Source of the DNA: Liquidambar formosana
Lineage: Eukaryota > Streptophyta > Magnoliopsida > Saxifragales > Altingiaceae
DNA length: 64,000 nt
Reading direction: 5' to 3'
NCBI GenBank assembly: GCA_039720395.1
Contig: CM077821.1
Location: 43,832,792 to 43,896,791 of the forward strand
Part shown: positions 1,011-62,055 of the stretch, piece by piece
How positions within the stretch are numbered: position 1 is the first letter of the stretch
Layout of the letters: each line of letters begins with the position of its first letter
The notes under the pieces: generated by a model
The model's database searches: none
Told to the model about the DNA's origin: nothing
Seen by the model: only the letters and a program-made list of their open reading frames with translations
Made by a program: the position numbers and the translations under genes

Positions 1011-1784
1011 TGTGTGGGATGATTATGAAGAGTAAATGAAACGGCGACACGTGTATGATCTCGGTAATGAGCTCGGGGTACCCTGCTCCATCGGGCAAGC
1101 ACGTCCTCGGAGCATCCGAGCGCTCGGTCCTGCCTGCTTTCGGGCATATGAGCCCTCGGGCCTTAATGCCTCTCGGTCCAATGAACCCCTTTCGGGCCGC
1201 ATAAGCACGCACCCCTCACGTGCGTCGAATTTGTCATACATCTCAGATCCGACAGAGGAAAATCAGACCGGGAGCAGAGCACGCTCCTGGAAACCGAACC
1301 AGGGGAACGACTGTCAGCGGCCAGGCCTGTAACTCCAAAAGATCCGCGATCTGGTCTGAAACCCCTATCTAACCATGGTTAGCTCGGAACCCTAATTTGA
1401 CCACAGTCAGGTCAGAGCATTGGACCAATCCGAAACCTAGCGCCTGCCTATAAAAGGAACACTATTCATGATGAGAAAGGTAAGTTCCTCTAGCACAAAA
1501 CCCTAAAAATTCCTCTCTCTTTCTTTCCCTCAAAATCTGACTTAACCGTCGGAGGGTTTTAGACCGGGAAACCCCTGGTCTCCCCTGACGATCCTCTTTG
1601 ATTTCAGGTCCCCGTTTTAGGCGACGCCCAGCTCTCCTGTTCATCGAGAAGGTTCTGTATCCCCGCATGAGCACGAGCCATCTCAGTCTTTACAACCCAA
1701 TCGGGCCATAGCTGCGTGGCGTTCCGAATCTTCGGATCACTCTTTCAAAGCAACCCGCCGACTGTCCGAACTTTTCCCCGTACA
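1011..1784 (+). repeat. 5' long terminal repeat
   Basis: It begins TGTGTGGG and ends CCCCGTACA and matches 11132-11909 throughout. I count about 22 substitutions, mostly transitions, plus a 4-bp indel in a CT tract. It holds a CCAAT-type palindrome near 1419-1429 and a TATA box, so U3 ends near 1475. CG-rich blocks (CTCGG, TCGGGC) repeat through U3. Confidence 0.93.
1449..1456 (+). promoter_or_regulatory. LTR TATA box (TATAAAAG)
   Basis: CTATAAAAGG lies about 25 bp downstream of a CCAAT-type palindrome (ttggaccaa) and is conserved in the 3' LTR at 11570-11577. Transcription would start near 1475-1485, placing the R region in the CT-rich stretch that follows. Confidence 0.75.
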
Positions 1785-1787
1785 GTT

Positions 1788-1805
1788 TGGCGCCGTCTGT
1801 GGGAA
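1788..1805 (+). promoter_or_regulatory. Primer-binding site
   Basis: TGGCGCCGTCTGTGGGAA starts three bases after the 5' LTR. Its first nine bases complement a tRNA 3' end reading ACGGCGCCA, as in tRNA-Asp-type primers used by Tat/Athila elements. The later bases match less clearly, so the exact tRNA is not assigned. Confidence 0.65.
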
Positions 1806-1865
1806 GCTACGAGCAAGAGGCCTTTATGCTTGCCTTCGCTTGAGCTGGTGTTCCCTTTCTTACAA

Positions 1866-2159
1866 ATGGCGGGGCGAACTAGGTCCGGGGCAATGTACGC
1901 TGGGCCAGAGATGAATGGAGCAAGTGTAGTGCTCCCACCACCACCGACCGGGCGTCCCCCGGCAGGTGCTACCTTCATCGGGGAGACAAGTAGGCCGGTG
2001 GAGCAAACCCAGATGCAAGAAGTCCAGGCCGCGTATGAGCGGGCGGTCGCGGAACATTCCAACCCGGAAGCGGTCACCGCCGTGGTCGCAATGCTCCAAG
2101 CACGGCTAGACGAGGCGAATCGCAAGAAACTCGCCCTAGAACAAGGTATTTCAATCTAA
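1866..2159 (+). CDS. N-terminal gag segment (97 codons), out of frame with main gag
   Basis: The open frame starts MAGRTRSGAM and ends at TAA 2157-2159. It contains a Pro-rich patch and an Ala/Glu/Gln-rich helical stretch with coiled-coil character, typical of the N-terminal leader of Tat gag proteins. The main gag frame is open from 2140 in a different register, so a single indel near 2140-2199, next to a C run at 2181-2188, probably separated the two parts. Alternatively this is an independent short upstream ORF. Confidence 0.5.
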   Translation: MAGRTRSGAMYAGPEMNGASVVLPPPPTGRPPAGATFIGETSRPVEQTQMQEVQAAYERAVAEHSNPEAVTAVVAMLQARLDEANRKKLALEQGISI

Positions 2160-2199
2160 AGGAGCGCAGCCGCCATCAAGCCCCCCCCACCATGGCCGA

Positions 2200-4407
2200 A
2201 TGACAACGGAGGATGGTGGCGACAAGCGAAGCTACACCTCTTACCCCGCCGAATCCCGGCCACGATGGCGTAAAATACATGTTCAAGAAAGGCGGTCTGA
2301 AAGAGGTGAGGATCAGAACTACAGGAAGTTGAAGAGTAAGATCGAGCGCCAAAGAGCTGATAAGGGACGGGTGCATGACTCTTTCTCAAGGGTCATCACT
2401 GCAGCGAGTTCTAGTCGAGTTAGGCGGACCCCCCGGGAAGATAACCAAGGTTGGAGAGGGAGCCAGCGGCACTCCGAAATGTCGGCCCTGAAGGCCAACC
2501 GGAGAGATAGAGAGCGTTACGAGGCAGTAGTCGAGGGCTCGGCGAAGCCAAGTCGATATGGGAAAAGCTCTCGAGAGGAGAGGAGAAGAAGGGTTGGAGA
2601 TTTAACCTCGGATGAATTCGCGAGGAAGATCCGAGAGGAGATCAAGATAATGAGGGAGCCAGTGCGACCGACGCCGAATTATTTGCTAATAGGAAGATCT
2701 CCCTTCGCGAGCTGGATCCAAACCACGCCAACCCCAAAGAATTACAGTGCCGTCACTTTCACACCTTACTCCCCTGTAACGGATCCCGACTACCATCTGA
2801 CGTACTATGTCCAAAAGATGTCCCTCTATATTGACAATGAAGGCTTTATGTGTAAAATCTTTCCGATGAGCCTTGGAGAGATTGCCCTCAGATGGTGGGC
2901 GAAGATTCCAGAGAAATCGATCCGAAGGTGGGAAGATTTGGTCAAGCTCTTTCGGGATCGATTTATAACAAGCAAGAAGTACGCCAAGACCATGCAAAAC
3001 CTGTACGAGATGAGGCAAGGGACGGAGGAGCCCTTGCGAGACTATTCCCAGAGATTCTGGGAGCTTTACACCGAGATCGAGGAGCCAGACGAGCGAAGCG
3101 CTCTCGACATCTTCAGACGAGGACTGATTCGATCCTCTCGGCTATTCGAGCAGCTCACCCTCGACCCGCCGTCCAGCATCGGAAAGCTGCTTGATCGAGT
3201 ACAGAGGTACATACGACTCGATGATGCTTTTCGGGCGGCCAAGCAAACCGAACAGGCGGATAAGAAGAAAGATAAGAATCCCCGAACGGACCGAGCAAGG
3301 GACGACCGAGCAAAACATGAGTCGACAAGAGACAAGGTACCAGCAAATCCAAATCAGGCGGTCCTCACTGTTTTCACTATGCCAATCTACAGACTCTTGC
3401 GAATCGTCGAAAATAAGGATTTCTTCGAAAAACCAAGGCCGATGGGCGGAGACCTCGAAAGGAGGAACAAAAAATGGTTTTGCGAATACCATAAAGATCA
3501 CGGCCATAAAACTGAAGACTGCAAAACCCTAAAGCATAACCTGGAGACCTGGGCAAAAGCCGGACACCTGAGTGAGTTCATAGTTAAGAACGACGATCGA
3601 AAGAAGCCCGAGGACAAAAAGGTTGAGAAACCAAGAACTGAGACCGAGGGATACACCGTTTTGGGAGCCATCGACGTAATTAGCGGAGCATATGACAGAG
3701 CTTCGGTCTCTATAAACGCCCTTCGAGCGCAATATCAGAAAGCCTCCCACCTTCGGGAGGTGTTCAAAGTAAAATCAGAGCCAACGCTCGTGGCTGAAAG
3801 AGGGAAGGATGATCTGAGCTCCGCCCTATTCTTCGGGAGAGATTATCCGACCACGGAAACACACCATCCCCACAATGACGCCCTGATAGTCCGAATGATG
3901 ATCGCAAACTACGACGTGGGGAAGGTCTATGTCGACAATGGAGCCTCGGTTAATGTCATGTTTAAAAAACTCTTCGACCAGTTAGGGTTGAAGAAGGACG
4001 ATCTCTCCCCGAGTAATTTGAGCTTGAAAGCATTTAACGGAAATCTTTCTTACCCCCTCGGGCAGGTCGCCTTAGCCGTCCGAACCGGCCCAGTCCAGAC
4101 CATCCAGCACTTTGTCGTTCTAGAAGAACGATCAGCATACAACGTGATAATAGGAAGGCCCTGGCTCCACGCTATCGAAGCGGTCCCCTCCACTTACCAC
4201 CAGTCCGTCCGCTTCCCGGGACCTGAAGGCATAATGGAACTCCGCGGAAACCAAGCTGTAGCCCGAGAATGTTTTATGTATGAACTTACAGGTCACACTC
4301 CGTCGTCGGCGGCCAAGAAGAAGGAAAAGAGCAACGTTCGGATTGAGATGATGGAGGACTGCTCCGTCGAGCCAAAAAAATCTAAAAGGGACATCGATCC
4401 CTTATAG
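2200..4407 (+). CDS. gag-protease polyprotein of the Tat-lineage element (735 aa)
   Basis: The N-terminal 160 residues are Arg/Lys/Glu-rich. A capsid-type retrotransposon gag domain follows at about residues 190-390 (WW, GTEEPLRDYSQRF and FRRGL motifs). A zinc-knuckle-like C-X2-H-X4-H-X4-C (CEYHKDHGHKTEDC) lies near residue 427. An aspartic protease follows, with active-site DNGAS (Asp near residue 579) and a downstream IIGRPWL block. ATG 2200 is the first in frame, but the frame is open from 2140 and may begin in the upstream segment. It ends at TAG 4405-4407; the same frame continues into reverse transcriptase, so this is a gag-pro product or the first part of a readthrough polyprotein. Confidence 0.88.
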   Translation: MTTEDGGDKRSYTSYPAESRPRWRKIHVQERRSERGEDQNYRKLKSKIERQRADKGRVHDSFSRVITAASSSRVRRTPREDNQGWRGSQRHSEMSALKANRRDRERYEAVVEGSAKPSRYGKSSREERRRRVGDLTSDEFARKIREEIKIMREPVRPTPNYLLIGRSPFASWIQTTPTPKNYSAVTFTPYSPVTDPDYHLTYYVQKMSLYIDNEGFMCKIFPMSLGEIALRWWAKIPEKSIRRWEDLVKLFRDRFITSKKYAKTMQNLYEMRQGTEEPLRDYSQRFWELYTEIEEPDERSALDIFRRGLIRSSRLFEQLTLDPPSSIGKLLDRVQRYIRLDDAFRAAKQTEQADKKKDKNPRTDRARDDRAKHESTRDKVPANPNQAVLTVFTMPIYRLLRIVENKDFFEKPRPMGGDLERRNKKWFCEYHKDHGHKTEDCKTLKHNLETWAKAGHLSEFIVKNDDRKKPEDKKVEKPRTETEGYTVLGAIDVISGAYDRASVSINALRAQYQKASHLREVFKVKSEPTLVAERGKDDLSSALFFGRDYPTTETHHPHNDALIVRMMIANYDVGKVYVDNGASVNVMFKKLFDQLGLKKDDLSPSNLSLKAFNGNLSYPLGQVALAVRTGPVQTIQHFVVLEERSAYNVIIGRPWLHAIEAVPSTYHQSVRFPGPEGIMELRGNQAVARECFMYELTGHTPSSAAKKKEKSNVRIEMMEDCSVEPKKSKRDIDPL

Positions 4408-4413
4408 CAATTA
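4402..4413 (+). promoter_or_regulatory. Candidate stop-codon readthrough site, UAG-CAA-UUA
   Basis: The codons are TTA TAG CAA TTA. TAG followed by CAA TTA fits the UAG-CARYYA context known to drive leaky termination in tobacco mosaic virus replicase. It sits between protease and reverse transcriptase, in frame with pol. A chance TAG from decay of a CAG codon remains possible, since three other TAG codons occur downstream. Confidence 0.5.
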
Positions 4414-7400
4414 AAGCACGGGCAGCTCGGGGTTGAAGATACTCTACACGAGCCCGACGACCGAACGGGTGAAGAGCTCCGCAAGATGATCATTGATGAG
4501 AAATGCCCCGAACGATACTTTCTTCTCGGAAGCTCTCTCTCAGAGGAGGAAGCTTCGGAGTTGTTTCAGTTCTTGAAGAAAAACGCTGATGTGTTTGCCT
4601 AGTCGCCACATGAGATGCCAGGAATCGATCCGAGCATAGTCCAACACAGGCTCAGAGTGAATCCGAGCTCCAAGCCCGTCACATAGAAGCAAAGGAGGTT
4701 GTCCGATGATCGAGCTCGGGCCATAAACGAGGAAGTAAAAAAACTTTCGAAAGCCGGATTCATACGGGAAGTAATGTACTCGACATGGCTCGCCAACCCA
4801 GTCTGTGTTAGGAAGAAAAGTGGCGAATGGAGAATATGTATTGATTTCACGGACCTAAACAAAGCCTGCCCGAAGGATAGTTTCCCACTACCAAAGATCG
4901 ACCAAGTCATAGACTCGATTGCCGGGTACGCTCGGTTAAGCATCTTCGACGCCTTTTCCGGATACCACCAGGTGCCGATGGCTGAAGAGGACCAAGAGAA
5001 AACAGCATTTATCACCCCCACCGGCACCTACTGTTACAAAGTGATGCCCTTCGGTCTCAAAAACGCTGGGGCAACATATCAACGACTTGTCTCTCAGATG
5101 TTCGAGGGACTAATTGGAAGGAATTTGGAAGCCTACGTTGATGACACCATCGTAAAAAGCTCGGCTGAGTGCGACCACATAGCTGACCTGGCCGAGGCTT
5201 TTGGGAGATTGCGGCAATTCGGGATGAAACTCAATGCTAAGAAAAGCTCTTTCGGGGTGCGGTCAGGAAAGTTCCTCGGATACTTGGTTACTCGACGAGG
5301 GATTGAGGCAAATCCCACGAAGATAGAGGCATTGCGATCACTAAAGGAACCGAGCACATACCGAGAGGTTCAGCGGTTGAACGGAATGATCGCGGCACTC
5401 GGGCGCTTTATCTCACGATCGTCGGACAAGTGCCAGCCCTTCTTCCAAGCTCTAAAGAAGCAGAAAACAAAGCACGTTTGGACGGAGGAATGTCGAGTCG
5501 CCTTGAAAAATTTAATAAGACATTTGGAAAGCCCTCCTGTTTTGTCAAAACCAAGACACGGAGAACCATTGTTCTTATACCTAGCAGTTTCCCAGCACGC
5601 GGTAAGCGCCGTCGCGATCCGAGAAGATGGAAAAGAACAGAGACCTGTGTATTACGTAAGTAAGACCTTACTTGATGCCGAAACACGGTACTTGCCTCTC
5701 GAAAAGATTGCCCTAGCACTTCGGACAGCTTCGAGAAAGCTCCGACACTATTTTCAAGCACACACCATCATCGTCCTGACGAACCAACCCCTAAAAGACG
5801 TACTTCGCAAGCCCGACCTTTCCGGAAGAATTTCTAAATGGGGGATCGAGCTAGCGGCATTTGATATACAGTTCAGACCGAGGACGGCAATAAAAGGGCA
5901 AATCCTAGCCGATTTCGTTGCTGAGTTTACCGATTGTAACAGCGAGCGAGATGAGGCAAACCAAAGTTCGCCCGAACAATCGGATACCTCTTCCTCGGCC
6001 GAACTCGGGGGCGAGGATAGTAAGAGATGGGAGCTGTATGTCGACAGGGCCTCGAACAATCGAGGGGCAGGAATCGGGATTGTCCTCCGATCTCCGACAG
6101 GTGAAGTTCTAGAAAGCGCCATCAGACTGCAGTTCTCCGCCTCAAACAACGAGGCCGAGTACGAGGCCACTATAGCAGGACTGAGGCTTGCCCTGGCATT
6201 ATCGGCGACCAAATTAAATCTTTTCAGTGATTCTCAATTGGTGGTTCGGCAGCTGAACGGCGAGTATGAGGCCCGGGATGAAAGGATGAGAGCTTACGTC
6301 GAGCTCACCAAGAAGCTTATTTCGAATTTCGAAAGCGTTTGCATCCAACAACTTGTCCGAGAACGGAACAAGCACGCGGACGCGCTAGCATCTCTCGCGT
6401 CGGCGCTGGAAACAGAATCCCGAAGAACAATTAATATCGAAACTATCCATGCCCCAAGCATAGAGCCAAGCCCGGAAGCCAACGAAATTGTCGAACTTGG
6501 TCCAAGCTGGATGGACGAAATAATCGAATATCTCAAAAATGATGTCCTTCCTGAAGACCACCATCAGAAGCACCGGACTAGGGTCAAATCGGCACGATTC
6601 TGGCTCTCTCCAAAAGGCTTGCTATACAGGCAATCTTTCACCGGAGCGTATTTGAGATGCGTTCATCCGAACGAAGTGGAAGGAGTCTTGCAAGAACTGC
6701 ATGATGGAAGTTGCGGAGGTCACGCTGGGGGATGCTCGCTGGCGCACCGAGCAATAACGCACGGCTACTGGTGGCCGTACATGCAAAAGGATGCCCTTAA
6801 GTACACCCGGAAATGTCCGAATTGCCAATTCTTCTCGGATAAAATCCACCGACCAGCAGGAAACCTACACCCATTATCAAGCCCTTGGCCCTTTGCAAAA
6901 TGGGGTCTTGATTTGGTCGGACCGCTCCCCCGAGCGAGCGGCAATAGGAGATACCTCGTTGTCGCAACCGACTACTTCACAAAGTGGGTGGAGGCCGTTG
7001 CCCTAGCCTCCATCAGGGATTCGGATATCATCAGTTTCCTTTGGGAAAACATCTTCACGAGATTTGGGGTTCCCCAAGCGTTCATCTTGGATAACGGTAC
7101 TCAATTCGAGAGTCAAAGAACTCAAGAGTTCTGCGCACAATTCGGAGCGAAGTTCTTCTACGCTAGTCCGAGTTATCCGCAATCAAATGGTCAAGCAGAG
7201 GCGACAAACAAAGTAATTGTAAAAGGAATCAAGAAGAGGCTGAAGAAAGCAAAAGGGAGGTGGCCCGAGGAGCTTCATGCGGTCCTATAGGCATACAGGA
7301 CGACCTCCCGGAGGTCGACAAACGAAACCCCTTTTGCACTCGCTTTCGGGACAGAGGCAGTCATCCCAGCAGAAATGGAATATCCGACTCTAAGAACAGA

Positions 7401-7749
7401 AGAACTCAGTCAGGAGCAGGACGAAGAGAACATGGCGCGCGAGCTTGACCTAGCCGAAGAAAGAAGAGGCGAAGCAATGATCCGAATGGCGATCTATCAA
7501 CAAGAACTCCGGAAGTATTATGAGAAGAAAATCAGCCCTCGAGAATTTAAAGTCGGTGATCTCGTCCTCAGAAAAGTAAACTTGGGAACTCGGGACCCAA
7601 AGGAAGGAAAACTCGGGGCAAAATGGGAAGGCCCCTATGAAGTCATCGCTGTCGGAGAAAAAAATTCCTATGATCTAAAGCATTGTGAAGACAATAGGGA
7701 CCTACCAAGGTCGGTAAACGTGTCGAACCTTGGAATATTCCACAAATGA
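4408..7749 (+). pseudogene. pol: reverse transcriptase, dual RNase H, integrase; three further TAG stops
   Basis: One reading frame, continuous with gag-pro, runs to TGA 7747-7749 and is broken only at TAG 4600, 4684 and 7288. The longest open part is 4699-7290. In order: reverse transcriptase (about 4760-5290, with MPFGLKNA and catalytic YVDD at 5134-5145); the RT-associated RNase H (about 5530-5900); a second plant-type RNase H (about 6025-6410, acidic residues in YVDRAS, NNEAEYE, LFSDSQ and NKHADAL); and integrase with an HHCC zinc region (about 6690-6840) and a DDE core (Asp in LDLVGPLP, Asp in LDNGTQF, Glu in NGQAEA). The C-terminal tail past 7291 has the KVGDLVLRKV block. TAG 4600 and 7288 replace tryptophans conserved in the family. 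Confidence 0.9.
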
Positions 7750-8294
7750 AGAAAGATGTAATATGAGCGTGGTCGGAAAAACACCAGCTCGACCCAATCA
7801 ATGAAGTCTTTTTGTTCAATGAAAATGCTGCCATTATTAGAAACTCCTAGTCTTGTCATGATGACGAGGACCGATCACCCTAGCCTCACTATGACAACAA
7901 GGAAATGCATACAGAAAACCTTAGTCTCGCCAAGGTGGTGAGGGCCGATCACCCTAGCCCCACTTGGGCGACAAAGGGATACTTACTTAAGTCTCGGATC
8001 CCGAACAGCGACGCCTTGGAACATAAAACAAAGGGCGCAAGCACAAGTGCATCTAAAAGAAGGGAAACATCCGAAGAAAAATAGGTTCTAGCGCTTAAAA
8101 CATGCATTGAAATATAACCAAACATAAAACGAAAAGCCCATCGGGCCGAAAACAAGCATAAACACTCAAGACAAGCATACAAGGGGAGCCCATCGGGCCA
8201 AAAAAGAGCATATATATATTCAAAAATTGAAGTTTTTTACAAATAGATCCCTGTACATAATAAGCCCCTCGGGCAAAAAATAAAAAATAAAATC
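7750..8294. other. Non-coding spacer between pol and antisense gene
   Basis: The pol stop and the antisense gene stop face each other across about 545 bp. The spacer has two imperfect copies of a block containing gatcaccctagcc (about 7873 and 7949), and CATCGGGCC repeats near 8140-8200. No ORF is convincing. It probably carries the 3' end of the antisense transcript. Confidence 0.55.
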
Positions 8295-10521
8295 CTAAGT
8301 GGGACGAGCCTCGGTGTTAGAGTGCTCGGGGTCCTCGACAGCAGGGCTCTGAAGGTCCTCGGGGGCAGGAAGCTCGGTGTTGTTGGTGGCTGGCACGACA
8401 TTCGGGCGCTCGGTTGCCCCAGGCTCCTCAGGTGAGGCCTCCCCATCCTCGACGTCATCCCCTTCCTCCTCTCCCTCATCGTCCGAGAGGGGCAGCATCA
8501 CCCTCTCAAAGGGGATCTTTTCTAAATCCACCTCCGGGTAGGCCTCCTTGACCCGAGCATCGAAGGAGTCCCAACCGAGTCTGTAATTCTTCTCCAAATA
8601 CGGCTCCATCTTTTCGACGTACTCGTCGGCGGCTTTGTCCTCGGCCTGTTTAATCTGGGTCGCCCGAGATTCGACCTCGGTCTGCCATTGATCATACCAT
8701 TCATCGGCTTGCTTCTTCCAGTGAGAAGCATCGCCTCGGGACTGATCAAGCTTGGACCTTAGGTCCTCGGTCAGGGCCTGAGACTTGGCGAGCTCGTCTT
8801 GGGACAACCGAGTAGCCTCTCGGATGCTCTCCAACTCCGACTGCACCTTGGCCAGCTCCTCCCTCAGCTGGCTTCCCTCGGCTTTAAGGTCGGACCTCTC
8901 GGTCGACCATTCAACCACCTCCTTTTTGTACCGGTCCTCGGTCTTCAAGAGGCGCTCGGTCAGGAGCATGGTTTGTTGCGCGGCCTGCGTTCACCGAGCA
9001 CAATTAGTATGTAGATAACAAACTCAAAATTTTCTAAGTGTTGGAAGAACAGAAGCTTACCAAGAGTTGGTGGATGAGCGTCTCGTAGCCCAAGTCCACC
9101 GATCGGTGTTTCTTGTGGCTGGACATGTCCGACGAGAACTTCAGTAAGTTCCCGATGGAATGATACGTGAACTCAGGGTCGGTCATGACCGAGAGCCTCC
9201 GGTCGGTTGGAAGGGGGAACTGGGGCAAGTCCCTCATTATCTCCCGGCGTCCTCGGTCTATTGTGAGGGGCTGGTACTCCGAGGAGGGGAAGGGGTAATC
9301 CATCTCAACCCTCTGCTTTTTCTTTGCCTGCTCGGGAGATTGGTCCTCGATCACGATTGTCTTCCCTGGCTTCTCCGAGGGCCCAATCTCCCGAGGAATG
9401 TTCGGCTCTGAGGACCGAGGAATTTCCGGAGCTGGCCTCTTCTCCGGTACCCTCGGGGTCGTTTCCCTCGGGGCAGCCTTGTCAGGCGGATTAACTGGAG
9501 GGACTCTCCCCTGCTGCTTCCTACGCATAGCCTCTTTGATGGGGTCAGACCCCTTCTGCCTGCTCGAGCCTGCGCCTTTCTTTTTTGGCGCAGGAACCTT
9601 CATGGAAGTTCCTCGGTCAGCCATATTATCGGGCGACCACTCTTGAGGGAAATTTGAACCCTCTCCTTCAGCTCGGCCCTGCTGCGTACCGAGAGCGACC
9701 ACTATGCTCGGTTCTCGCTCGGGAGCCTTCTTCTTCTTTGCTTGACCAAAAGAAGGGTACCCTCTGGGAACGCTCGTGGCCTGGAAGCTTCGGTACCGAG
9801 GAGGGTACTTGAGGAGGACGTGGGCAGCCCGACCAAAGCCATCTTCCCCTCGGTAGTTCAGTACCCTCTGGATCTCTTCCTCCCTAACTTCAAGAGGAAG
9901 CTCAAAGGCAGCCTCAGCTGTGGAAAAAAGAACAAGTCATGAACCGAGAAGGAAGAAAAAACATAAAGAAACAAGTGATTAAAAATACCAAGTGTAAATA
10001 AACTTACGAGGCTCCCTGAGCTCCCGAGGGACTCTTCGCCCTTCTCGCCCGAGCAGGGGAGGCTCAAAATCACCATAGACAAATACTATGTCCGATTGGT
10101 ACCCCTGGCTACTGTCGGGGATGTGAGTAACGAGCACCCGCTCGGGGTTTCGGGATCTGAGATAGAACCCGCTCGGTGACCGAGACAGCTGATAGCAGCT
10201 GAATATCTCTTCAACTCCTAAGTTGGTCCCGAGAATTCTGTTGAGCTCTACAACCCTGAGCACTACTTTGTATGTGTTCAGTTTCAACTGGATGGGTGCC
10301 AAATTGATGAAGTTGAGGAAGTCCACTAGGAGGTCAGGGAACGGGACCCGAACACCACCCTCGAAGAAGTTGATGTTGTGGATTGGAACTCCCCCTCGGT
10401 TGTCGGTGGAACCGATCTCTTCACCGACCTCGGCAGACCGAAACGTTATCTCGGTCCCAAAACCGAACTTCTCCCCGAAGTCCCTCTCCTTGTTCGGGTT
10501 CCCTCGAATTTGATGAGTCAT
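8295..10521 (-). CDS. Antisense spliced ORF of the retrotransposon (about 686 aa)
   Basis: Three coding exons read on the minus strand: 10521-10008, 9917-9061 and 8984-8295. The introns have good GT-AG borders (GTAAGTTT...CCACAG and GTAAGCTT...ACGCAG), and the frame is preserved across both, giving 687 codons with stop. Residues 1-170 contain a domain like the plant 'putative gypsy type transposon' family (VRVPFPDLLVDFL, then a VYGDFE block). The middle is basic and Pro-rich with a KKKQR-type nuclear-signal-like patch. The last 230 residues hold a long coiled coil (EELAKVQSELESI) and an acidic tail. Extra antisense ORFs at this place are known in Retand-type elements; their function is unknown. 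Confidence 0.8.
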
Positions 10522-10838
10522 CTGTTAAGTACAAAGCTCGGTAAGGATAAAATGCCCTAGGACGCATGAAACAAATAATAATCCTATCTTTAAGGGAATC
10601 CCCGGACAATCCTAGGTAAGTTAGTCTCTCGGTTTAAATCCTAGTCTCATCCGAGCACATATGTTGTGCTCGGTTCAAACACATTGCAGGAAACCGAGCA
10701 CATGTGATGTGCTCGGTTCAGACATTCCACAAACAACCGAGCACACAACTTGGTTTTTACGAACGGATTGAAAAAAGGAGATCACAGGCAAATGCATTGA
10801 GAAAAATGAAGAACACCAAGAACAGATGAAGAACTTAC
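10522..10838 (-). other. Predicted 5'-UTR intron of the antisense gene
   Basis: A GTAAGT donor at 10838-10833 and a CAG acceptor ending at 10522 border this 317-bp stretch, and the acceptor touches the ATG at 10521. The exon upstream (10839 to about 10945) has no ATG, so it is leader only. The intron holds two palindromes listed separately. Confidence 0.65.
10651..10716. repeat. Pair of 23-bp palindromes CCGAGCACA-N5-TGTGCTCGG
   Basis: Perfect 9-bp arms occur at 10651-10673 and 10694-10716, and a third half-copy (ccgagcaca) begins at 10737. The spacers differ (tatgt, tgtga) while the arms are identical. Confidence 0.85.
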
Positions 10839-10965
10839 CGGAAAACTCAAGAAGGGCGATTTCCGGCGGCTGTCGACGGTGGAATTCCTTTCTCCGGCAA
10901 ATTCTCTTCGGTTGGCAAGGCTCTGGCTTTGGGAATGAAAATGGGAAAATAAGGGAGGAAAATCC

Positions 10966-10997
10966 CTTATATACCTAGCTTCCCGAGGCTGACGTCA
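10966..10997 (-). promoter_or_regulatory. Antisense gene promoter: TATATAAG box and TGACGTCA site
   Basis: On the minus strand TATATAAG lies at 10973-10966, about 130 bp before the 5'-UTR intron donor. A perfect palindromic TGACGTCA, a bZIP (as-1/CRE-type) binding sequence, lies 16 bp upstream at 10990-10997. The start of transcription would be near 10940. Confidence 0.6.
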
Positions 10998-11121
10998 CCC
11001 CCTCGTGATTTGTGCCGAAAGGCTGCCTCGGGCATACGAAACGGCGCTTGATTGAAAGGCAGTACCACCATGTCAGAACCATCACATCCTCGGTAACCGA
11101 GTGACCGAGGACACGATGGCT

Positions 11122-11131
11122 CGGGGGAAGT
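11122..11131 (+). promoter_or_regulatory. Polypurine tract
   Basis: The purine-rich cgggggaagt run directly before the 3' LTR is where the plus-strand primer of an LTR element is expected. Confidence 0.6.
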
Positions 11132-11909
11132 TGTGTGGGATGATTATGAAGAGCAAATGAAAAGGCGACACGTGTATGATCTCGGTAATGAGCTCGGGGT
11201 ACCCTGCTCCATCGGGCAAGCACGTCCTCGGAGCATCCGAGCGCTCAGTCCTGCCTGCTTTCGGGCATATGGGCCCTCGGGCCTTAATGCCTCTCGGTCC
11301 AATGAACCCCTTTCGGGCCGCATAAGCACGCACCCCTCATGTGCGTCGAATTTGTCCTACATCTCAGATCCGACAGAGGAAAATCAAACCGGGAGCAGAG
11401 CACGCTCCTGGAAACCGAACCAGGGGAACGACTGTCAGCGGCCAGGCCTGTAACTCCGAAAGATCCACGATCTGGTCTGAAACCCCTATCTAACCATGGT
11501 TAGCTCGGAACCCTAATTTGACCACGGTCAGGTCAGAGCATTGGACCAATCCGAAACCTAGCGCCTGCCTATAAAAGGAACACTATTCATGATGAGAAAG
11601 GTAAGTTCCTCCAGCACAAAACCCTAGAAATTCCTCTCTCTCTCTCTCTCTCCCTCAAAATCTGACTTAACCGTCGAAGGGTTTTAGACCGGGAAACCCC
11701 CGGTCTCCCCTGACGATCCTCTTTGATTTCAGGTCCCCGTTTTAGGCGACGCCCAGCTCTCCTGTTCATCGAGAAGGTTCTGTATCCCTGCATGAGCACG
11801 AGCCATCTCAGTCCTTACAACCCAATCGGGCCATAGCTGCGTGGCGTTCCGAATCTTCGGATCACTCTTTCAAAGCGCCCCGCCGACTGTCCGGACTTTT
11901 CCCCGTACA
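11132..11909 (+). repeat. 3' long terminal repeat
   Basis: Counterpart of 1011-1784, with TATA box at 11570-11577 and terminal CCCCGTACA followed by the atagg duplication at 11910-11914. A longer CT tract near 11633-11652 accounts for the length difference. Confidence 0.93.
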
Positions 11910-12107
11910 ATAGGTATAATGTATTTTGGTAAAAATCTATCATAGACTATTTAAAAAATTAGAAGTCATCACTATAATAATGTTATAATGTTTCATTAAA
12001 TACCAATAATCATAATTTTTATTATGGTATGTGATGAATACTGCCATTATCATGATATTTTTCATTCAATTTAATGAAATTGTGCTAAATACTATTCAAA
12101 CTAAGCT

Positions 12108-12670
12108 GTTTCATTTGCGTGGGAAAAAGGTTGGCATAATCTTTGGATTGAGAGTGACTCTTTAGCAGTAATTTGTTGCCTTTAAAATAGAATTTTTAAG
12201 CCACCTTGGCCTCTTCTTAATCGATGGAGGAATTGCTTATCTCTTATCAACAAAATGAATGTGGTGTTTTCTCATATTTTTAGAGAAGGGAATTCAGCGG
12301 CTGATAAAATAGCAAATAAAGCTATTAATTTTTTGACGCTAACTTGGTATTCTACTGATCCTGGTTTTGCCTTCTAAGAAGTTGAGAGGGATATGTGGGG
12401 TCTTTCTCATTATCGTTTTGTAAACTAGTATTGTTTTATATTTTTCTGATTTTATGAGCTGGATTGTGATGTTTATAAGTCACCAAGACCAGACAGTTTT
12501 TGTTATTTTTATTTTTCATTCCTCTTGTCTCAGTTTCTTTTTCTTTTATTAATAATATTCAGGGCTATCAACACATGATTTGGAGGTCTTAGGGTGCCAA
12601 CCTAGTTAGGATGCTAAACTCTTCACTGATGCTTAAGCTCTGCTTTTCCAAAAAAAAAAAAAAAAAAAAA
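12108..12670 (+). mobile_element. 5'-truncated L1-type LINE with RNase H remnant
   Basis: A 12-bp duplication tcaaactaagct flanks the segment (12096-12107 and 12671-12682), which ends in about 21 A residues. Conceptual translation around 12118-12375 gives pieces typical of the C-terminal RNase H of plant L1 LINEs (LWIESDSLAV, HIFREGNSAADKIA), with a stop and frame damage. The upstream ORFs are missing, so this is a dead 5'-truncated copy. Confidence 0.88.
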
Positions 12671-12682
12671 TCAAACTAAGCT

Positions 12683-13068
12683 AGTCAATACGGCCCCTTG
12701 TGTATTCTTCTCTTATAGGCCCATACAAATGCGTATATTGCATCGGCAACCCTTCCTTCACCATTTTATATCTATCCTCTAAATCCACGTGTCCCCATGA
12801 TCCATAGCTTGAAAGCCAATTCAACCATCATCATCGTCATCACTCACACACAAAAAATATACTAAAATCCCAAAATATTTTTCCAGGGTCCAATGCATAA
12901 ACCCTGTAGTCTCCCACCTCATCCCAACGAGCCGCTCTCTCTCACACAAAAACGTCCTCTCTGTAAAACCCTTCGATAGTATCTCCCACCCAACAGCTCG
13001 CTCTCTCTCTCCTCAAAAACTTCTTCTTTCTAAAACCCTCTTTATATCTCACCCAGGAAGGAAGAAAC
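12683..13068 (+). promoter_or_regulatory. Upstream region and leader of the unknown gene at 13069
   Basis: CT-rich leader-like sequence (gctctctctcacac and similar, about 12930-13050) precedes the ATG. I see no clear TATA box. The region begins right after the LINE insertion, so any distal promoter lies beyond that element. Confidence 0.4.
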
Positions 13069-50268: not shown

Positions 50269-50382
50269 ATATCAAAGCTTACAACAAACCAAATATAAGA
50301 ACTCAATGACAACTGAAAACCCACAATATTAATCATCCTTATCCAACCATAAAGCTTGCCACACTCCAAGGAAACAGAAATT

Positions 50383-52291
50383 CTAAGAGCTAAAGGGCTT
50401 CAATGTGTTCCCAATATCGATTACGAATCGATATCTAACATCACCCTTCACCAGACGCTCCATGGCAGTGTTTACATAGTCCATCGGAATAACCTCAATA
50501 TCTGCTACTATTTTGTGTTTTGCTGCAAAATCAATCATCTCTTGCATCTCCTTCATTCCCCCACCAGCACTCCCAGTTACCATCTTTCTCCCTGTTGATC
50601 CACGTACATTCACTGTTAGCTATAGTTTCTAACTCAAGTTTAATTATGTGAAATCCTCTAAGAGGGCACCTCTTAATGAGATTGAGAAAGATGAAAGAGA
50701 CAAATACATGAATGGCAACCTCTCAAGTTTACTTGTATCCTTGTCGATCCACAGGCAAGGGTGGAATATATAAATTCTTCTCATATAAGTGAGCAATGCT
50801 ATATATCTCACAATTTTCCCACAAATTCAAAATCCCAAATGAGGTGACATCTTAGTATCAGATTTATTTTTGGCTCATTATTCAAATTCAAATTTTAAAA
50901 TCCAAAGTCGTGGGTTGTTACATTGCCATATCATTATGGATGTTGAATTTCAGAAAAAATTTTTTTGAGACAAGGAGCATATTAACTACCTAAGTAATAA
51001 AGCCATGTTAACCTAAGCCATGTTAACTGATGAAAAGTGTTTGATGTCATATGCTTACCCATAAGCAAAGGAATAATTGGTAGCTCAAGCGGCTTCTCTG
51101 GTACACCAACCATTATAAGTTTTCCATGAGACTTAAGAAGGCCAATCAATGGTAGGAGAGGATGAGTTGCGGAGACCGTATCGATAATACCATCCAGTGA
51201 GCCCATAGCAGCCTAAAAAATTCAACATAATAGCATTAGCAAATGAGGTTAATATCTATAACAGTATAGTCTAAAGTTGTCACCTGCATCTGCTCTGCAT
51301 CGTGGCTGACCAAAAACGAGTCCACACCTAGATTTTCTATAGCCTCATTCTTCTTGCTAGGAGAAGTACTGATCACTGTCACTTTACCCCCAAACGCCTT
51401 TGCAAACCTCACGGCTACATGGCCTAGCCCACCTAGTCCCACCACACCCACATGCATACCAGGTTTGTCAAGTCCGAAATATTTCAAGGGGCTATACACT
51501 GATATCCCAGCGCATAGAAGAGGAGCACCAGCATCCAGAGGCAAGCCGTCAGGAAAACGAATCACGTAGTGCTCATCCGCGACCATGATGTTGGAGAAGC
51601 CTCCATATGTGGTGGTCCCATCGTCGTAAGTGGAGCTGTAGGTGAGTATAAAATTTGGGCAGTAAGTCTCAAGATCATTGGCACAGTTATCGCAAGAGTG
51701 GCACGATCCAGCCAAGCCCCCCATGCCCACTTTATCTCCAACTTTGAACTTTTCTACCTTGTTTCCCACCTCCGTCACTACGCCCACAATCTCGTGCCTG
51801 CATTGGCCATTTTTTGTAACATGGATTAAAGTTGTGAGTAACGAAAAAATGGACCACCCATCCTCGAAGTAATTTTCTCTCCATGGAAAAACCAATCAAT
51901 TAATTGAAAAAAGTGAGGTTAAGGTTGCATAGGTACCCAGGGACGAGAGGGTATGTGGACATGCCAAATTCGTCCTTAACAAAGTGAAGATCAGAATGAC
52001 ATATCCCACAGTAAAGCACTTTAAATGTCACGTCTTTTTCTCCTATTGCCCTGCACGTAACCATCATATATCAATTATTACAACATAAACATTGTTAGTA
52101 ACTTTTTTATCATTATTATCATGATCATCGTTTTTTATTCTAAGAGCTAGCACATAGAACTGCGCAGAGAAGTAAGAATTAAAACAGATTTACCTTCTGG
52201 AGAATTTGAAGTGGGAGAGGACACCAGATGTGTCTCTGGCTGCCCATCCTAGGGCCTTCTGCGGGTGTTCTGTCTCTGGCGATTTAGACAT
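50383..52291 (-). CDS. CAD: Cinnamyl-alcohol-dehydrogenase-family enzyme, copy 1 (362 aa, five exons)
   Basis: Zinc- and NADP(H)-dependent medium-chain dehydrogenase interconverting alcohols and aldehydes. Exons 52291-52194, 52050-51937, 51797-51284, 51212-51059 and 50591-50383; phases fit, 363 codons with stop. Residues seen: catalytic zinc ligands in [14 protein letters not shown] and LLCAGI; structural zinc cysteines in [17 protein letters not shown]; Rossmann loop [11 protein letters not shown]-terminal [12 protein letters not shown]. It starts [20 protein letters not shown], without a targeting peptide, so cytosolic. The [15 protein letters not shown] start is of the mannitol dehydrogenase / sinapyl alcohol / 8-hydroxygeraniol dehydrogenase type; the true substrate cannot be told from sequence. 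Confidence 0.94.
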
Positions 52292-52860
52292 TTTTTTTCT
52301 TTCTTTCTTACACGTAGCAAAGGTGCGTGGAGAGAGAGAGATCTTATAAGCTGGTGGCTGAAGGTTGTGGTGGTGGTGGCAAGAGCTTTAATAAGAGATG
52401 GGGTTGACTCTTCTTGGCTGAATTGTTTTTCCCCCAAGAAAGCGCACATCTACACGCAACAATTTTTTCAGGGATGGGGCGGTCCACTTTCGACTGCTGA
52501 CCACGACATTATGTATATACTTAATAGGGAATAGACAAAATCTAGCCCAATTTTTTTGTGCTTGCATGTTGGCCAAGCATACATGATGTTGAGCACTTAA
52601 ATATGTTGAGCACCTAATAATATTCAAGTATTCAATGATGTACATCTATAACAATGAATATCATGAATCCGCTTGGGTCCCAATCGACGTCGTACATACA
52701 TGATGTTGAGCATCTAAATATGTTCATCATGCTCTCAAAAAAGAACATCCTTTTATATCTCCATCAAATATGGGTCACAGATGTACTGTGTACATGTTGG
52801 TTGCGAAATAAATGGGTGATAGAGATGAGAGTCCAAAAGATGTTTGCTTAGAAAACCTAC
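52292..52860. promoter_or_regulatory. 5' flank of CAD copy 1
   Basis: Reading toward the gene on the minus strand, a GTATATAC TATA-like box lies at about 52513-52520. A single leader block (gcaaaggtgcgtgg...gctgaaggttgtggtgg, about 52317-52378) follows, then the ATG. In copy 2 that TATA-like box is changed and the leader block is triplicated. Confidence 0.45.
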
Positions 52861-52863
52861 TCA

Positions 52864-53059
52864 TCCCTTCAGTAACTCAATTGGTAAGAGAGAACTTGTG
52901 ATTGTGTGGTTGGGCGCATGGTCACAGGTTTGATTTCCCACAAAGATAATCCAAGATTTAAGTGAAGGGTTGTAGTGATAGATTGCTGCGCTAGTCTCCC
53001 CAAACCCAAAGATTTAAATTCTATGAGTGGATCCCTCATTTAAAAAAAAAAAAAAAAAA
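52864..53059 (+). mobile_element. tRNA-derived SINE in unit 1
   Basis: An A-box-like TAACTCAATTGGTA (about 52873-52886) and a B-box-like GGTTTGATTTCCC (52928-52940) are spaced as in tRNA-derived SINEs. A run of about 19 A residues (53041-53059) ends it. The counterpart in unit 2 lies at about 61850-62055. Flanking duplications are not clear. Confidence 0.65.
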
Positions 53060-54094
53060 ATTACTCCTGTTTCAAATTGACTGTCCTCTTTGAAAAAAAC
53101 ACGCTTTTTAAGGAAACCCTATTAAATGTTTTCACATTAATGCATATGTTTTGAAATTCTAATTTTGCCCTCAAATGTGCAAAACATTAGAGAAAGAGGA
53201 AATACCTTTTTAAAGGTATTTTAGGAAATGAATCAAAAAGAATTAATGATTTTTAAAATGTGACAATAATTTCGAAACATCCAAAAATAAAAAAAGTATG
53301 CCACTTATTTAGAAAACCTTGGTCGACTGTAGGCAGTGCAAAAATGGGCCCGTTAATACTAGTAATCAAGCACACGTGATGCATGTGCAACACATCTTTT
53401 CAAGTTTCCACTCTATTAGTGAAACTGCTATGTTAGTTTTCAAGTTTCTTAAATCGCATGTGTGTGTGAGAGAGAATTAAAGGAAAACAGATTGTACGTG
53501 GATTTTTTAAAATTGGTAAAATGATCAAATCGTCTCTTAACTTTATAACTTATAAGGGTATTCTAGTATTTTCAGGTGCAATCCAACCACAAAGGATATT
53601 GGCTTTATATGGCAGTATAGATTTATGTGCTGTGTCCGAATCCGTGCACATGTATGAATAGGGAAAGTGATCAAGGGTATTTTGGACAAAAGAAAATCCA
53701 ATGTCATGAACCATTCCAACCACTATGGACGGTTTTAACTTTAAACCTTGGACTGGAATGTTTCAAAACCCAACTCATTGTTCCACATTTTGTCACCATT
53801 TGTCAACCTAATCATCCCCTTTTACACTTACATCTGCAGAGATTTCTCATTTTATTCTTTTATTGAGTTTTTATATTTTTTTTGGGGAGGAAAATTTATT
53901 TTTCATGAGTCTTATTATGCATTCCCGAAATAAGCTCCATTGACTGGGGCAAGGTATTCACTAGCCATAGCAGCCAATCAGAAAAATCTATAGTTGGGCC
54001 AACCATTGCAAAAGTGCCTTTACTAAAAATGGGCTTGTATTGGGCTTGGAGGCCCAAATTCCCAAATTCATATTAGTGTCCATATTTAAATTAA
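53060..54094. other. Unit 1 intergenic DNA
   Basis: No gene. A ctcctgtttcaaattgactgtcc block just after the SINE resembles the CTCCNTCTGTTTCAAATTG ends of common plant MITEs, but no matching right end is found. Confidence 0.4.
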
Positions 54095-54499
54095 GGGAAC
54101 AGCTATTGCAACCCCCATTCTTATAACCTCACCCATTTGTTTTTGGTTTTCAAGATTTCATGAAAAATATAAAAGGTTTTTGCAAAAACCAACCGCTTGG
54201 TCCTACTAGAAAACATCATTTTGAACAACTTTAAAGGAGAAGGTTTTACTAAAATCTATCGTTTAGGTAGACTTTTTGGCAAAAAATGAATTAAATGCTA
54301 TAAATGGCTAAAAAGTATATTTAAACGATAGATTTAGGAAAAACTTTTTTTTACAAAGTTGTTCAAAATGGTATTTTTTACTGGATATCACGGCCGATTT
54401 TCATAAAAACCTTTTATATTTTGCATAAAATCTTAAAAGCCTGAAGAATGTGGGCTGGGTAGTAACTAGTAAGAATGTGGGGTTGCAATAGCCGTTCTC
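54095..54499. mobile_element. Foldback MITE (405 bp) in unit 1
   Basis: A 9-bp duplication ttaaattaa (54086-54094, 54500-54508) flanks inverted ends GGGAACAGCTATTGCAACCC and GAGAACGGCTATTGCAACCC. The interior is palindromic (aaatctatcgttta and taaacgatagattt). Its copy in unit 2 lies at 63081-63484. Confidence 0.85.
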
Positions 54500-54509
54500 T
54501 TAAATTAAA

Positions 54510-54840
54510 AACAGCCCAAGGGGCCCAAACTCCAGAACCATCCCGAGAGTTCAGGACATGTCCTCCACATGAATAAAAACCCACCTTGATGATGTCATAC
54601 CTGGCATTAGCAATTACATCTCCACTGTTACCTTTTGCTGAATGACTCAACATTAGGCCACATAGCTTCTCTGGAATCTTCCTATCCACCAATTTTCCAA
54701 CTCGGTTGTCCTCATCATAACTCGGTTTATTCCACTGAGTTGACTCGTCACCAATTGAGTCACCCGGAGTTACAACACAATGACCATAGCCACCACGGCT
54801 AAAAGCTTCCCATGAGGCGTATCGAAATGATCCGCCCTGC
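54510..54840 (-). pseudogene. Unrecognised exon-like ORF, unit 1
   Basis: One minus-strand frame is open for about 110 codons: FRYASWEAFSRGGYGHCVV, STQWNKPSYDEDNRVGKLVD, KIPEKLCGLMLSHSAKG and on. Acceptor-like TTAGCAG|GGCGG (about 54837) and donor-like AAAAG|GTAACA (about 54634) bracket the best part. Composition and conservation in both units suggest a coding exon or gene fragment. I do not recognise the family. It ends into the MITE without other exons in view. Confidence 0.45.
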
Positions 54841-55677: not shown

Positions 55678-55789
55678 ATCAAAGCTTACAACAAACCAAA
55701 TATAAGAACTCAATGACAACTGAAAACCCACAATATTAATCATCCTTATCCAACCATAAAGCTTGTCACACTTCAAGGAAACAGAAATT

Positions 55790-61101: not shown

Positions 61102-61130
61102 TTTTTTTTTCTTTCTTTCTTTCTTATACG

Positions 61131-61849: not shown

Positions 61850-62055
61850 CCTTCAGTAACTCAATTGGTAAGAGTGAACTTATGATTGTGTGGTTAGGCG
61901 CATGGTCACAGGTTTAATTCCCTGCAAAGATAATCCAAGATCTAAGTAGAGGGCCATAGCGATTGATTGCTACGCTAGTTTCCCCAAACCCGAAGATTTA
62001 AATTCTATGAGTGGGTCCAAAGGATTCTACAGTAGATCCCTCGTTTTAAAAAAAT
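61850..62055 (+). mobile_element. tRNA-derived SINE in unit 2
   Basis: Counterpart of 52864-53059, with TAACTCAATTGGTA and GGTTTAATTCCC boxes. The tail is shortened, and an extra ccaaaggattctacagtag segment is present before it. Confidence 0.62.

Follow-up and report, generated by a model that had tools for sequence, protein, structure and literature searches.

In a Ty3/gypsy element of Liquidambar formosana, the minus strand of the region from pol to the 3' LTR very probably carries a complete spliced gene, maintained in evolution as a coding unit under selection, judging from its layout in the window (the whole stretch of 64,000 nucleotides analysed) and in its copies. Its spliced CDS has 687 codons including the stop and encodes 686 amino acids; promoter signals, exons, introns and stop all lie where a sequence-only reading of the same DNA had placed them (Table 1), down to the acceptor of the 5'-UTR intron, whose CAG ends at 10522 and touches the ATG. 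The claim of that reading that a Retand-type element bears a spliced antisense gene finds support in the copies and in divergent families, whose introns sit at matching positions. An own promoter and antisense TRP28 ORFs are already published and are not new; new are the excess and the conservation of a short motif, CTCGG/CCGAG, on the element.

Table 1. Features of the element and of its antisense gene in the window (n/39, copies other than the window copy).
Feature	Position	Strand	Remarks
Target site duplication ATAGG	1006-1010 (left), 11910-11914 (right)		Sequence reading
5' LTR	1011-1784	+	
PBS-like stretch, starts GTTTGGCGCCGTC	1785-1805	+	
gag-protease ORF	2140-4407	+	PF03732, 60.0 bits
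pol ORF	4687-7749	+	RT, RNase H, second RNase H (RVT_3), integrase
Polypurine tract (PPT) GGGGGAAG	11123-11130	+	Sequence reading
3' LTR	11132-11909	+	
TGACGTCA, putative antisense promoter	10997-10990	-	Identical in 37/39 copies
TATATAAG, putative TATA box of antisense promoter	10973-10966	-	39/39 copies
Non-coding exon 1	10940-10839	-	Start site inferred from TATA box
Intron 1 (5' UTR)	10838-10522	-	Acceptor CAG directly abuts ATG at 10521
Coding exon 2	10521-10008	-	TRP28-like stretch, residues 49-83
Intron 2	10007-9918	-	90 nt, phase 1
Coding exon 3	9917-9061	-	Basic clusters
Intron 3	9060-8985	-	76 nt, phase 0; retention gives a stop after 8 codons
Coding exon 4	8984-8295	-	Predicted helix of ~147 residues, then acidic tail; stop TAG 8297-8295
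CTCGG/CCGAG motifs	1011-11909	both	114, dispersed; densest from antisense gene to PPT

The host element

The stretch that starts with GTTTGGCGCCGTC is a putative PBS. Protease matches in the gag-protease ORF stayed under the Pfam cut-off, and the gag-pol frame of the window copy is broken by in-frame stops at 7288-7290 and within 4405-4686. The LTRs, of 774 and 778 bp, differ by a K2P distance of 0.0278 (774 sites) and enclose an internal region of 9347 bp, of which 3382 bp separate pol from the 3' LTR; all of these sizes fall inside the ranges reported for Retand elements (LTR 315-1194, internal 7380-12869, pol to 3' LTR 2933-6566 bp; PMC11963269). Within the pol ORF, residues 293-392 match PF17917, 457-570 PF13456, 660-715 the integrase zinc domain and 735-830 rve, and the second RNase H sits between RNase H and integrase, an arrangement (aRH) that marks the Ogre/Retand elements of the Tat clade of Ty3/gypsy (PMC6317226). 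A plant mobile domain, which the same source gives for the extra ORF of 57% of Ogre elements, was not among the Pfam hits of the antisense protein down to an E-value of 1, so this Ogre feature was not found. Taken together, the sequence features fit the Retand lineage of Ty3/gypsy. When viral_contigs was searched with the RT-RNase H stretch, 250 relatives were returned, and the best 80 of the 250 were all short matches, at 28-41%, that fell in the part with the second RNase H; the antisense protein gave five pattern matches there, none of them confirmed.

Structure of the antisense gene

Three GTAAGY donors exist on the minus strand between 8200 and 11000, and they are exactly those of the three introns. 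Starting at an ATG, spliced chains here extend to 686 codons, whereas none exceeded 238 in any of 200 dinucleotide shuffles. In the promoter, the block 10990-10971 between TGACGTCA and TATATAAG shows a conservation of 0.997-1.000 among copies. Intron 1 harbors a 43-bp tandem repeat (10651-10745) that carries the CTCGG/CCGAG motif, with CCGAGCACA-N5-TGTGCTCGG palindromes. The gene would be transcribed by RNA polymerase II and spliced, and if intron 3 is retained, a shorter protein devoid of the coiled coil may arise as well.

Conservation and selection among copies

We scored 40 copies, the closest of 166 candidates in the same genome, 39 of them beyond the window copy. Both the ATG and the TATA box are kept in all 39, the GT donors of the three introns in 38, 36 and 38, and the AG acceptors in 39, 38 and 39. 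Splice dinucleotides are only modestly better conserved than intron dinucleotides drawn at random (400/20000). Joining the exons gives an open frame in 21 of the 39 (22 of 40 counting the window copy). Among the 22 intact copies dN/dS is 0.153 for the whole CDS (208 of 231 pairs, 23 with dS <=0.02 having been dropped) and 0.115, 0.123 and 0.171 for exons 2, 3 and 4 (194, 207 and 206 pairs), with the qualification that values around 0.15 are likely too low owing to CpG-rich exons, which are probably also why divergence is lower in introns (pi 0.077-0.108) than at synonymous sites (dS 0.30); with introns as the yardstick the ratio comes closer to 0.4-0.5. On gap-free columns the value is 0.149 in frame, the two alternative frames of this strand give 1.79 and 1.88, and pN/pS over all copies (40/40) is 0.168. 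Indels are multiples of three in 98 of 144 cases in exons and in 23 of 238 in introns. The antisense frame is under purifying selection, and the random decay among related copies that the sequence-only reading had named as its own refutation was looked for and not encountered (dN/dS 0.15, layout kept in 39 copies). A frame on the opposite strand with a dN/dS of 0.228 was discarded as a shadow, as it has third positions in common with the gene and 20 stops in the window copy.

Exon phases fit in 22/22 intact copies, a fit that is inherited and so does not amount to 22 independent tests. The length of intron 2 modulo 3 is 0, 1 and 2 in 9, 4 and 9 of these copies, so that the frame would stay open despite retention of the intron in only 8/22. 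No copy without intron 2, which would have been an independent witness of splicing, was matched genome-wide, allowing up to three mismatches. The family of loci L140-L142 shares both coding introns at a protein identity of ~37% (36.7% over residues 1-458), and splicing at the homologous sites yields the same two phases and an end-to-end alignment; L141 is then open over 640 codons. A further divergent family has intron 2 in common with the window gene, and L143 has no GT at the end of exon 3. The acceptor abutting the start (CAG|ATG) was found at 4/4 loci from two divergent families.

In published surveys the antisense ORFs, one for TRP28 and one for the coiled coil, are drawn as two or three unspliced units apart from each other, and the Retand survey counts 104 antisense ORFs in 63 clusters (PMC11963269). 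In keeping with such a picture, the sixth codon of exon 4 is an ATG and read-through meets a stop within intron 3, each in 39/39 copies. However, the five codons upstream of that ATG are in frame and read AAQQT or GAQQT in 38/39 copies, the phases fit in every intact copy though intron 2 length takes all classes modulo 3, donors and acceptors are conserved, and the family at 36.7% protein identity has the same two phases and positions; separate ORFs were rejected on these grounds as very improbable. Even less is to be expected of an open frame and splice signals arisen by chance as a GC-rich repeat decays. An unspliced run as long as the best one here (300 codons) appeared in 1/500 shuffles and is less decisive alone, but the 686-codon chain set against shuffles, the layout kept in copies, dN/dS, the phases and the divergent family make chance practically inconceivable, and on the copies it is refuted. 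A function of the antisense RNA itself, as dsRNA or siRNA with the sense RNA, was raised as a possibility in PMC7264820; it was rejected, and we give it hardly any credit, because selection acts on amino acids, and for an RNA both introns and reading frame would be irrelevant.

Protein product

The gypsy-type domain that the sequence-only reading had joined to a long coiled coil and an acidic tail proved weak in the window copy. PF04195 (TRP28, "putative gypsy type transposon") scores 14.7 bits with the full protein and 17.4 with exon 2 alone, under the curated cut-off of 26.2, as does P0001 (19.1 bits), which with P0002 represents another family of the genome (matches on contig C2). Place and orientation match the TRP28-type antisense ORFs of Retand elements. 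At its N-terminus the predicted product has a TRP28-like domain; basic clusters, a long coiled coil and finally an acidic tail follow. The basic clusters of exon 3 are presumably NLS-like. TRP28 is a predicted DNA-binding domain (PMC11963269); the mean pLDDT of 40 for the predicted structure of exon 2 leaves DNA binding without structural support.

The CTCGG/CCGAG motif

The 114 motifs on the element compare with 34.0 +/- 6.2 in dinucleotide shuffles, while the 52 kb downstream have 21 versus 21.7. Most sites sit in coding sequence, where density is highest: the antisense CDS holds 44, compared to 16.7 in synonymous shuffles, none of which (0/1000) held as many. The motif is also in excess in intron 1, promoter and LTR; in gag no excess beyond codon usage was found (183/1000 synonymous shuffles). 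Among copies, 46.1 of 55 sites are kept versus 32.7 expected at 90.0% identity, and four-fold sites inside the motif are more conserved (p = 1.2e-5; within CpG 0.873 versus 0.746). The z value of CCGAG is 14.6 in the second half of the element and 5.0 in the first; across 18 control chunks of 5 kb, which stand for a part of the genome, it is at most 2.7, and -0.9 in the chunk with an unrelated gypsy pol (L147). The best non-simple 5-mer of these chunks reached 6.8, k-mers built of period 1-3 repeats having been left out of this control ranking alone. Two other families have CCGAA and CGACC as top words (z 7.3 and 6.9, barely over the controls), and CCGAG is enriched in the C1 element as well (z 6.3), so that one word per family is not established.

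Possible function and comparison with known systems

What Retand antisense ORFs do is posed as an open question in PMC11963269 and PMC7264820; the possible joining of ORFs in one gene and the existence of a candidate target word render it testable. Of the Retand clusters with recent activity, 97% have antisense TRP28 ORFs, and antisense ORFs with Smc-like domains are reported too (Vicient 2025, PMC11963269). Our gene resembles them in its place from pol to the 3' LTR, orientation and sizes, and its TRP28-like stretch is a match under the Pfam cut-off; it differs in that TRP28 and coiled coil appear as exons of one gene, whereas that survey took ORFs of at least 600 bp and the words intron and splicing are absent from its text. 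Antisense ORFs reported apart may belong together as exons of a single spliced gene; if so, surveys of uninterrupted ORFs (at least 600 bp, or getorf with at least 250 codons) would see pieces of the protein only. Splicing and an independent promoter had been called rarely described; as for splicing this held, since our literature search, with most subscription papers outside it, found none published for a Retand-type antisense gene, but not for the promoter, as maize Grande gene23 is likewise antisense in the 3' internal region, with its own upstream promoter and a nuclear product (Gomez-Orte 2013, as reviewed in PMC7264820).

We propose that the antisense gene would be transcribed from its TATA promoter, which lies within the internal region shortly before the 3' LTR, and that its product is most likely a nuclear, self-associating, DNA-binding protein. 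This protein would recognise CTCGGT/ACCGAG scattered over its own element and regulate it in trans, the likeliest mode being to counter silencing, as VANC does for VANDAL transposons; the dispersed CCGAG motif gives a concrete form to the earlier suggestion that the protein may act in trans. That a spliced gene encodes a protein acting in the nucleus on the element we consider probable, and this part is in common with a nuclear role that does not involve CCGAG. Binding of CTCGGT/ACCGAG is a tentative proposal, with a chance not far short of even. Anti-silencing, drawn by analogy, is rather unlikely, and slightly more so is the full scheme, a Retand counterpart of VANC in which the antisense TRP28/coiled-coil protein binds a CCGA-core word sown element-wide, coding sequence included, keeps the element expressible, and co-evolves with the motif between families.

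VANC is similarly the product of an accessory gene of the element, and its short motif is enriched on its own element (PMC5735166, PMC10398659), as ours is in comparison with the control chunks. VANDAL is a DNA transposon, VANC has DUF1985 and DUF287 (PMC5735166) and no domain common with the antisense protein, and its motifs are found for the most part in non-coding tandem repeats with a single orientation, whereas ours are dispersed, in both orientations and mostly coding, and are a putative target. Neither DUF had a Pfam match up to E 1 in our protein, and its identification as a VANC was discarded. A nuclear product could also act otherwise, in nuclear import, integration or RNA handling or as an HBZ-like LTR repressor, the motif excess having come about through mutation, codon context or earlier growth of repeats, and to this we attribute a real though lesser than even probability. 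The Grande product is nuclear (PMC7264820), as are HBZ and APH-2, both spliced antisense products (PMC10186651), and motif binding by our protein is only putative. On the other side, the motif exceeds both dinucleotide and synonymous shuffles, its excess extends to intron 1, promoter and LTR, four-fold sites are more conserved, and CCGAG is not in excess in the 18 control chunks (z <=2.7). HBZ of HTLV-1 and APH of HTLV-2/3/4 come likewise from spliced antisense genes with a regulatory product at the 3' end of a retroelement; their promoter lies in the 3' LTR (PMC10186651), unlike the internal one here, and homology is not claimed.

The element would multiply through its sense RNA, where the antisense introns, lying on the other strand, would not be recognised and would be inherited by every new copy. 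This would be a simple route for a retroelement to keep introns, on a strand that is never its genome. Spliceosomal introns in LTR retrotransposons are also known from Ogre and EVADE, where they are reported for the gag-pol sense RNA (PMC12786077, PMC6317226).

The antisense gene and its host element

On re-reading the minus strand, the promoter motifs, introns and exons of the sequence-only reading were found at the correct coordinates. As far as the DNA tells, its claim of a complete spliced antisense gene with its own promoter inside a Ty3/gypsy element (687 codons including the stop) describes a real gene, rightly read.

Features of the antisense gene and of the Retand-type element carrying it
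Feature	Coordinates	Strand	Basis	Details
LTRs	1011-1784 and 11132-11909			K2P 0.0278 over 774 sites
Target duplication				ATAGG, 5 bp
PBS-like stretch	at 1785			
gag-protease	2140-4407			
Promoter motif TGACGTCA	10997-10990	-	sequence	
Promoter motif TATATAAG	10973-10966	-	sequence	
Intron 1	10838-10522	-	sequence	donor at 10838; acceptor at 10522 abutting ATG at 10521
Coding exon 2	10521-10008	-	sequence	
Intron 2	10007-9918	-		90 nt, phase 1
Coding exon 3	9917-9061	-	sequence	
Intron 3	9060-8985	-		76 nt, phase 0
Coding exon 4	8984-8295	-	sequence	stop TAG 8297-8295

The spliced frame comprises 686 codons before its TAG, and this is the length of the longest ATG-started chain when up to two introns are allowed, against a maximum of 238 in 200 dinucleotide shuffles. 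Coding exons have a GC content of 54-59% and introns of 30-42%. The minus strand of 8200-11000 has three GTAAGY sites, one at each intron, and the plus strand has two. A codon-usage score trained on the element's own gag and pol ranked the claimed frame top of all six in every coding exon (0.040 in exon 3, 0.120 in exon 4), although in exon 2 its 0.058 is barely over the 0.055 of one sense frame holding 3 stops. Downstream of the gene, 7839-7986 consists of two tandem units of 74 bp, 73% alike.

Pol domains of the element are ordered RT, RNase H, a second RNase H of RVT_3 type and integrase, an order ascribed to Ogre and Retand (PMC6317226). Gag-pol of the window copy carries four in-frame stops, all TAG, within 4405-4686 and at 7288-7290; the antisense frame is open. 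At a substitution rate of 1.3e-8 per site and year the copy was inserted about 1.1 million years ago, or about 2-5.6 million at the slower rates of trees.

Conservation among copies and selection on the protein

A genome search with a 903-base antisense probe returned 166 candidates, of which 40 were scored (86-100% identity); 39 loci besides the window were fetched as the copy set. BLAST matches run through the stop codon in 37 of these 39, and in the other two (L097 and L124) end inside exon 4, where the multiple alignment extends further. The ATG and TATATAAG are present in all 39 copies and TGACGTCA in 37. The block between the promoter motifs (10990-10971) has a conservation of 0.997-1.000, compared with 0.73-0.96 for the other ten-base blocks of 11000-10839. 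Donor GT is found at introns 1, 2 and 3 in 38, 36 and 38 of 39 copies, and acceptor AG in 39, 38 and 39; the first donor reads GTGAGT in 26 copies and GTAAGT in 12. The six splice dinucleotides are only modestly better conserved than intron dinucleotides drawn at random (400 of 20000).

Spliced at homologous sites, 21/39 copies (22/40 including the window) have an open frame through the last codon. Among these 22, intron 2 length modulo 3 is 0, 1 and 2 in 9, 4 and 9 copies; the frame stays open in 8 when intron 2 is retained, and stops within 500 codons in all 22 when introns 2 and 3 are both retained. Of the indels relative to the window, 98/144 in exons and 23/238 in introns have lengths divisible by three, counts that tally copies and not independent events, with some one-base exon indels paired. 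A search of the genome for a copy of the gene lacking intron 2 found none.

The 22 intact copies have a mean dN of 0.0456 and dS of 0.2976, with a ratio of 0.153 over the 208/231 pairs with dS > 0.02; by exon it is 0.115 in exon 2 (194 pairs), 0.123 in exon 3 (207) and 0.171 in exon 4 (206). Over all 40 copies, stop codons omitted, pN/pS is 0.168 (780 pairs). In gap-free columns the gene frame gives 0.149, compared with 1.79 and 1.88 in the strand's other two frames and 1.44, 0.23 and 2.42 on the opposite strand; the opposite frame with 0.23, which has its third positions in common with the gene, holds 20 stops and was rejected. Introns diverge less between copies (0.077-0.108) than synonymous sites of exons (dS 0.30). 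Synonymous sites probably outpace introns through the CpG richness and CpG decay of the exons; constraint on the introns could conceivably also be the source of their low divergence. Taking introns as the reference, the ratio for protein-changing sites is about 0.4-0.5, also far below one.

Protein features and related families

PF04195 (TRP28) matches residues 49-83 with 14.7 bits, under the curated cut-off of 26.2. Exon 2 alone scores 17.4, and 19.1 is reached by P0001, a public L. formosana protein of another antisense-gene family; P0002, a second such protein, and P0003, from a single 1824-base contig, gave no PF04195 match. The structure model of exon 2 was too poor for use. Exon 3 has basic clusters that we take to resemble nuclear signals. 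Exon 4 is predicted by a single-sequence model as one helix (residues 2-148, block means 85-96 up to residue 130), followed by an acidic tail of low model confidence. Retention of intron 3 would end the protein after VS(F/L)CS(S/F)NT in 38/40 copies, including the window. Those 27 nt (9060-9034) are more conserved than the intron middle (0.960 vs 0.789), a trend weaker in introns 1 and 2, and a short isoform through intron 3 retention is therefore possible.

With P0001 as query, three related loci were found on contig C2, which also carries the window (43832792-43896791), and further ones on C1 and C4. The three (L140-L142, at C2 11.38-11.66 Mb) resemble each other closely and represent a divergent antisense gene; L142 has 36.7% identity with residues 1-458 of the window protein. 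At homologous places they carry CAG|ATG, CCTC|GTGAGT, TGCAG|CT, donor GTAAAT and acceptor TATAG|GCC. Spliced there, exon 2 has 520 nt and exon 3 827 nt; introns of 95-99 nt (intron 2) and 305-309 nt (intron 3) have the window's phases, 1 and 0, and the product can be aligned with the window protein over its full length, coiled coil included. L141 is open over 640 codons; L140 and L142 have one in-frame stop each. The models of P0001 and P0002 lack the last exon because they end inside intron 3, and P0003, matching exon 3 at 62%, ends in nearly the same read-through. On C1, L143 has CAG|ATG and the intron 2 sites of L140-L142, an exon 3 end without GT, in-frame stops, and pol on the opposite strand (88% identity over the pol end). 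The best argument for genuine introns is that families this distant have the intron positions in common.

Two of L140-L142 match public host-gene records (P0001, P0002), and only eroded integrase fragments (L145) adjoin L142. The three may be non-autonomous relics or candidates for host domestication. L144 (C4:7540600-7545000) contains the antisense exon 2 region twice, in opposite orientations, within 4.4 kb.

A dispersed CTCGG/CCGAG word

The element contains 114 CTCGG/CCGAG words vs 34.0 +/- 6.2 in 200 dinucleotide shuffles, and the 52 kb downstream within the window 21 vs 21.7 expected. It is the top 5-mer of the element (z 15.3), and ACCGAG the top 6-mer (48 vs 6.1, z 19.5, 60 shuffles). 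By region, intron 1 is enriched 27-fold for CTCGG/CCGAG (7 vs 0.3), the stretch from promoter to polypurine tract 6-fold (6 vs 0.9), 8295-10521 5-fold, the 5' LTR 3-fold (8 vs 2.5), pol 2.6-fold and gag 1.6-fold; z is 14.6 in the second half and 5.0 in the first. Against a Markov model knowing tetramers the excess is small (114 vs 93), as repetition of the entire word would produce. Synonymous shuffles preserving protein and codon usage (1000 each) gave 16.7 for the 44 words of the antisense coding sequence and 9.8 for the 21 of pol, both reached by 0/1000, and 9.9 for the 13 of gag (183/1000). Within intron 1, 10651-10745 is a 43-bp tandem repeat of operator-like CCGAGCACA-N5-TGTGCTCGG palindromes.

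Across the 39 copies (mean identity 0.900), 46.1 of the 55 window sites persist, where identity alone predicts 32.7, and with 12.9 gained the total stays near 59. Among the 40 five-mers that have 12 or more sites, median retention is 0.633 and the 0.837 of this word ranks third; only CCTCG and CGGTC, which both overlap the motif, are retained better. Four-fold degenerate sites are more conserved inside motifs (p = 1.2e-5), also within CpG (0.873, n=29, vs 0.746, n=47), as are non-coding bases (0.970 vs 0.902, p = 0.042), p values that are rough since columns are not independent.

Eighteen 5-kb control chunks (10 from the window, 8 elsewhere in the genome) gave a highest z of 6.8 for any non-simple 5-mer and of 2.7 for CCGAG; in L147, holding another gypsy pol (38% identity), the z of CCGAG is -0.9. 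Leading words are CCGAA among non-simple words (z 7.3, CCGAG also up at 6.3) in the 8.6 kb C1 element, CGACC (6.9) in the L141 gene, and CCGAG (9.2) and CCCGAG in L144. The CCGA core is common to the families and its neighbouring bases differ. That each family has a word of its own is no more than a suggestion, the z of CCGAA and CGACC being barely above controls.

Relation to known elements and putative mode of action

Antisense ORFs are reported in all recently active Retand clusters and TRP28, of predicted DNA binding and unknown function, in 97%; 63 clusters have 104 antisense ORFs and 11 Smc domains (Vicient 2025, PMC11963269). In the text of that paper "intron" and "splicing" are absent, and "spliced" appears twice, at least once in a reference title. 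Grande gene23 is reported to have its own promoter and a nuclear product, in a paper that also calls for examination of antisense and spliced transcripts (PMC7264820). Introns are generally absent from plant LTR elements, with Ogre and EVADE as exceptions (PMC12786077). Our literature search, mostly outside subscription papers and thus no proof of absence, turned up neither a spliced antisense gene nor a dispersed word in Retand elements. The kind is known; as far as searched, what is new is its spliced architecture and its motif.

Comparison of the copies shows that the antisense gene is kept as a spliced coding unit behind a conserved promoter, and that the element around it keeps its word. 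Polymerase II would transcribe it from the internal promoter and splicing would yield the 686-aa protein; the introns would persist because the sense RNA is the element's genome. The protein would enter the nucleus, self-associate via its coiled coil and bind the word through the TRP28 region. The nearest working model is VANC, an element-encoded protein that recognises a short word in which its own element is rich and causes silencing marks to be lost (PMC5735166, PMC10398659). The antisense protein is not classed as VANC because no domain is shared and the word is here mostly coding, whereas that of VANC lies mainly in non-coding tandem repeats. A parallel between VANC and LTR-retrotransposon proteins has been drawn for non-Retand lineages, without a motif (PMC12844716). 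Another model is HBZ of HTLV-1, which is spliced, antisense and nuclear, and reduces expression from the 5' LTR (PMC10186651).

Elsewhere in the window, 50269-57493 and 52314-64000 form large duplicated blocks, 91-95% identical. They hold two minus-strand copies of one reading frame (51236-51895 and 56663-57295), presumably alcohol dehydrogenase-like.
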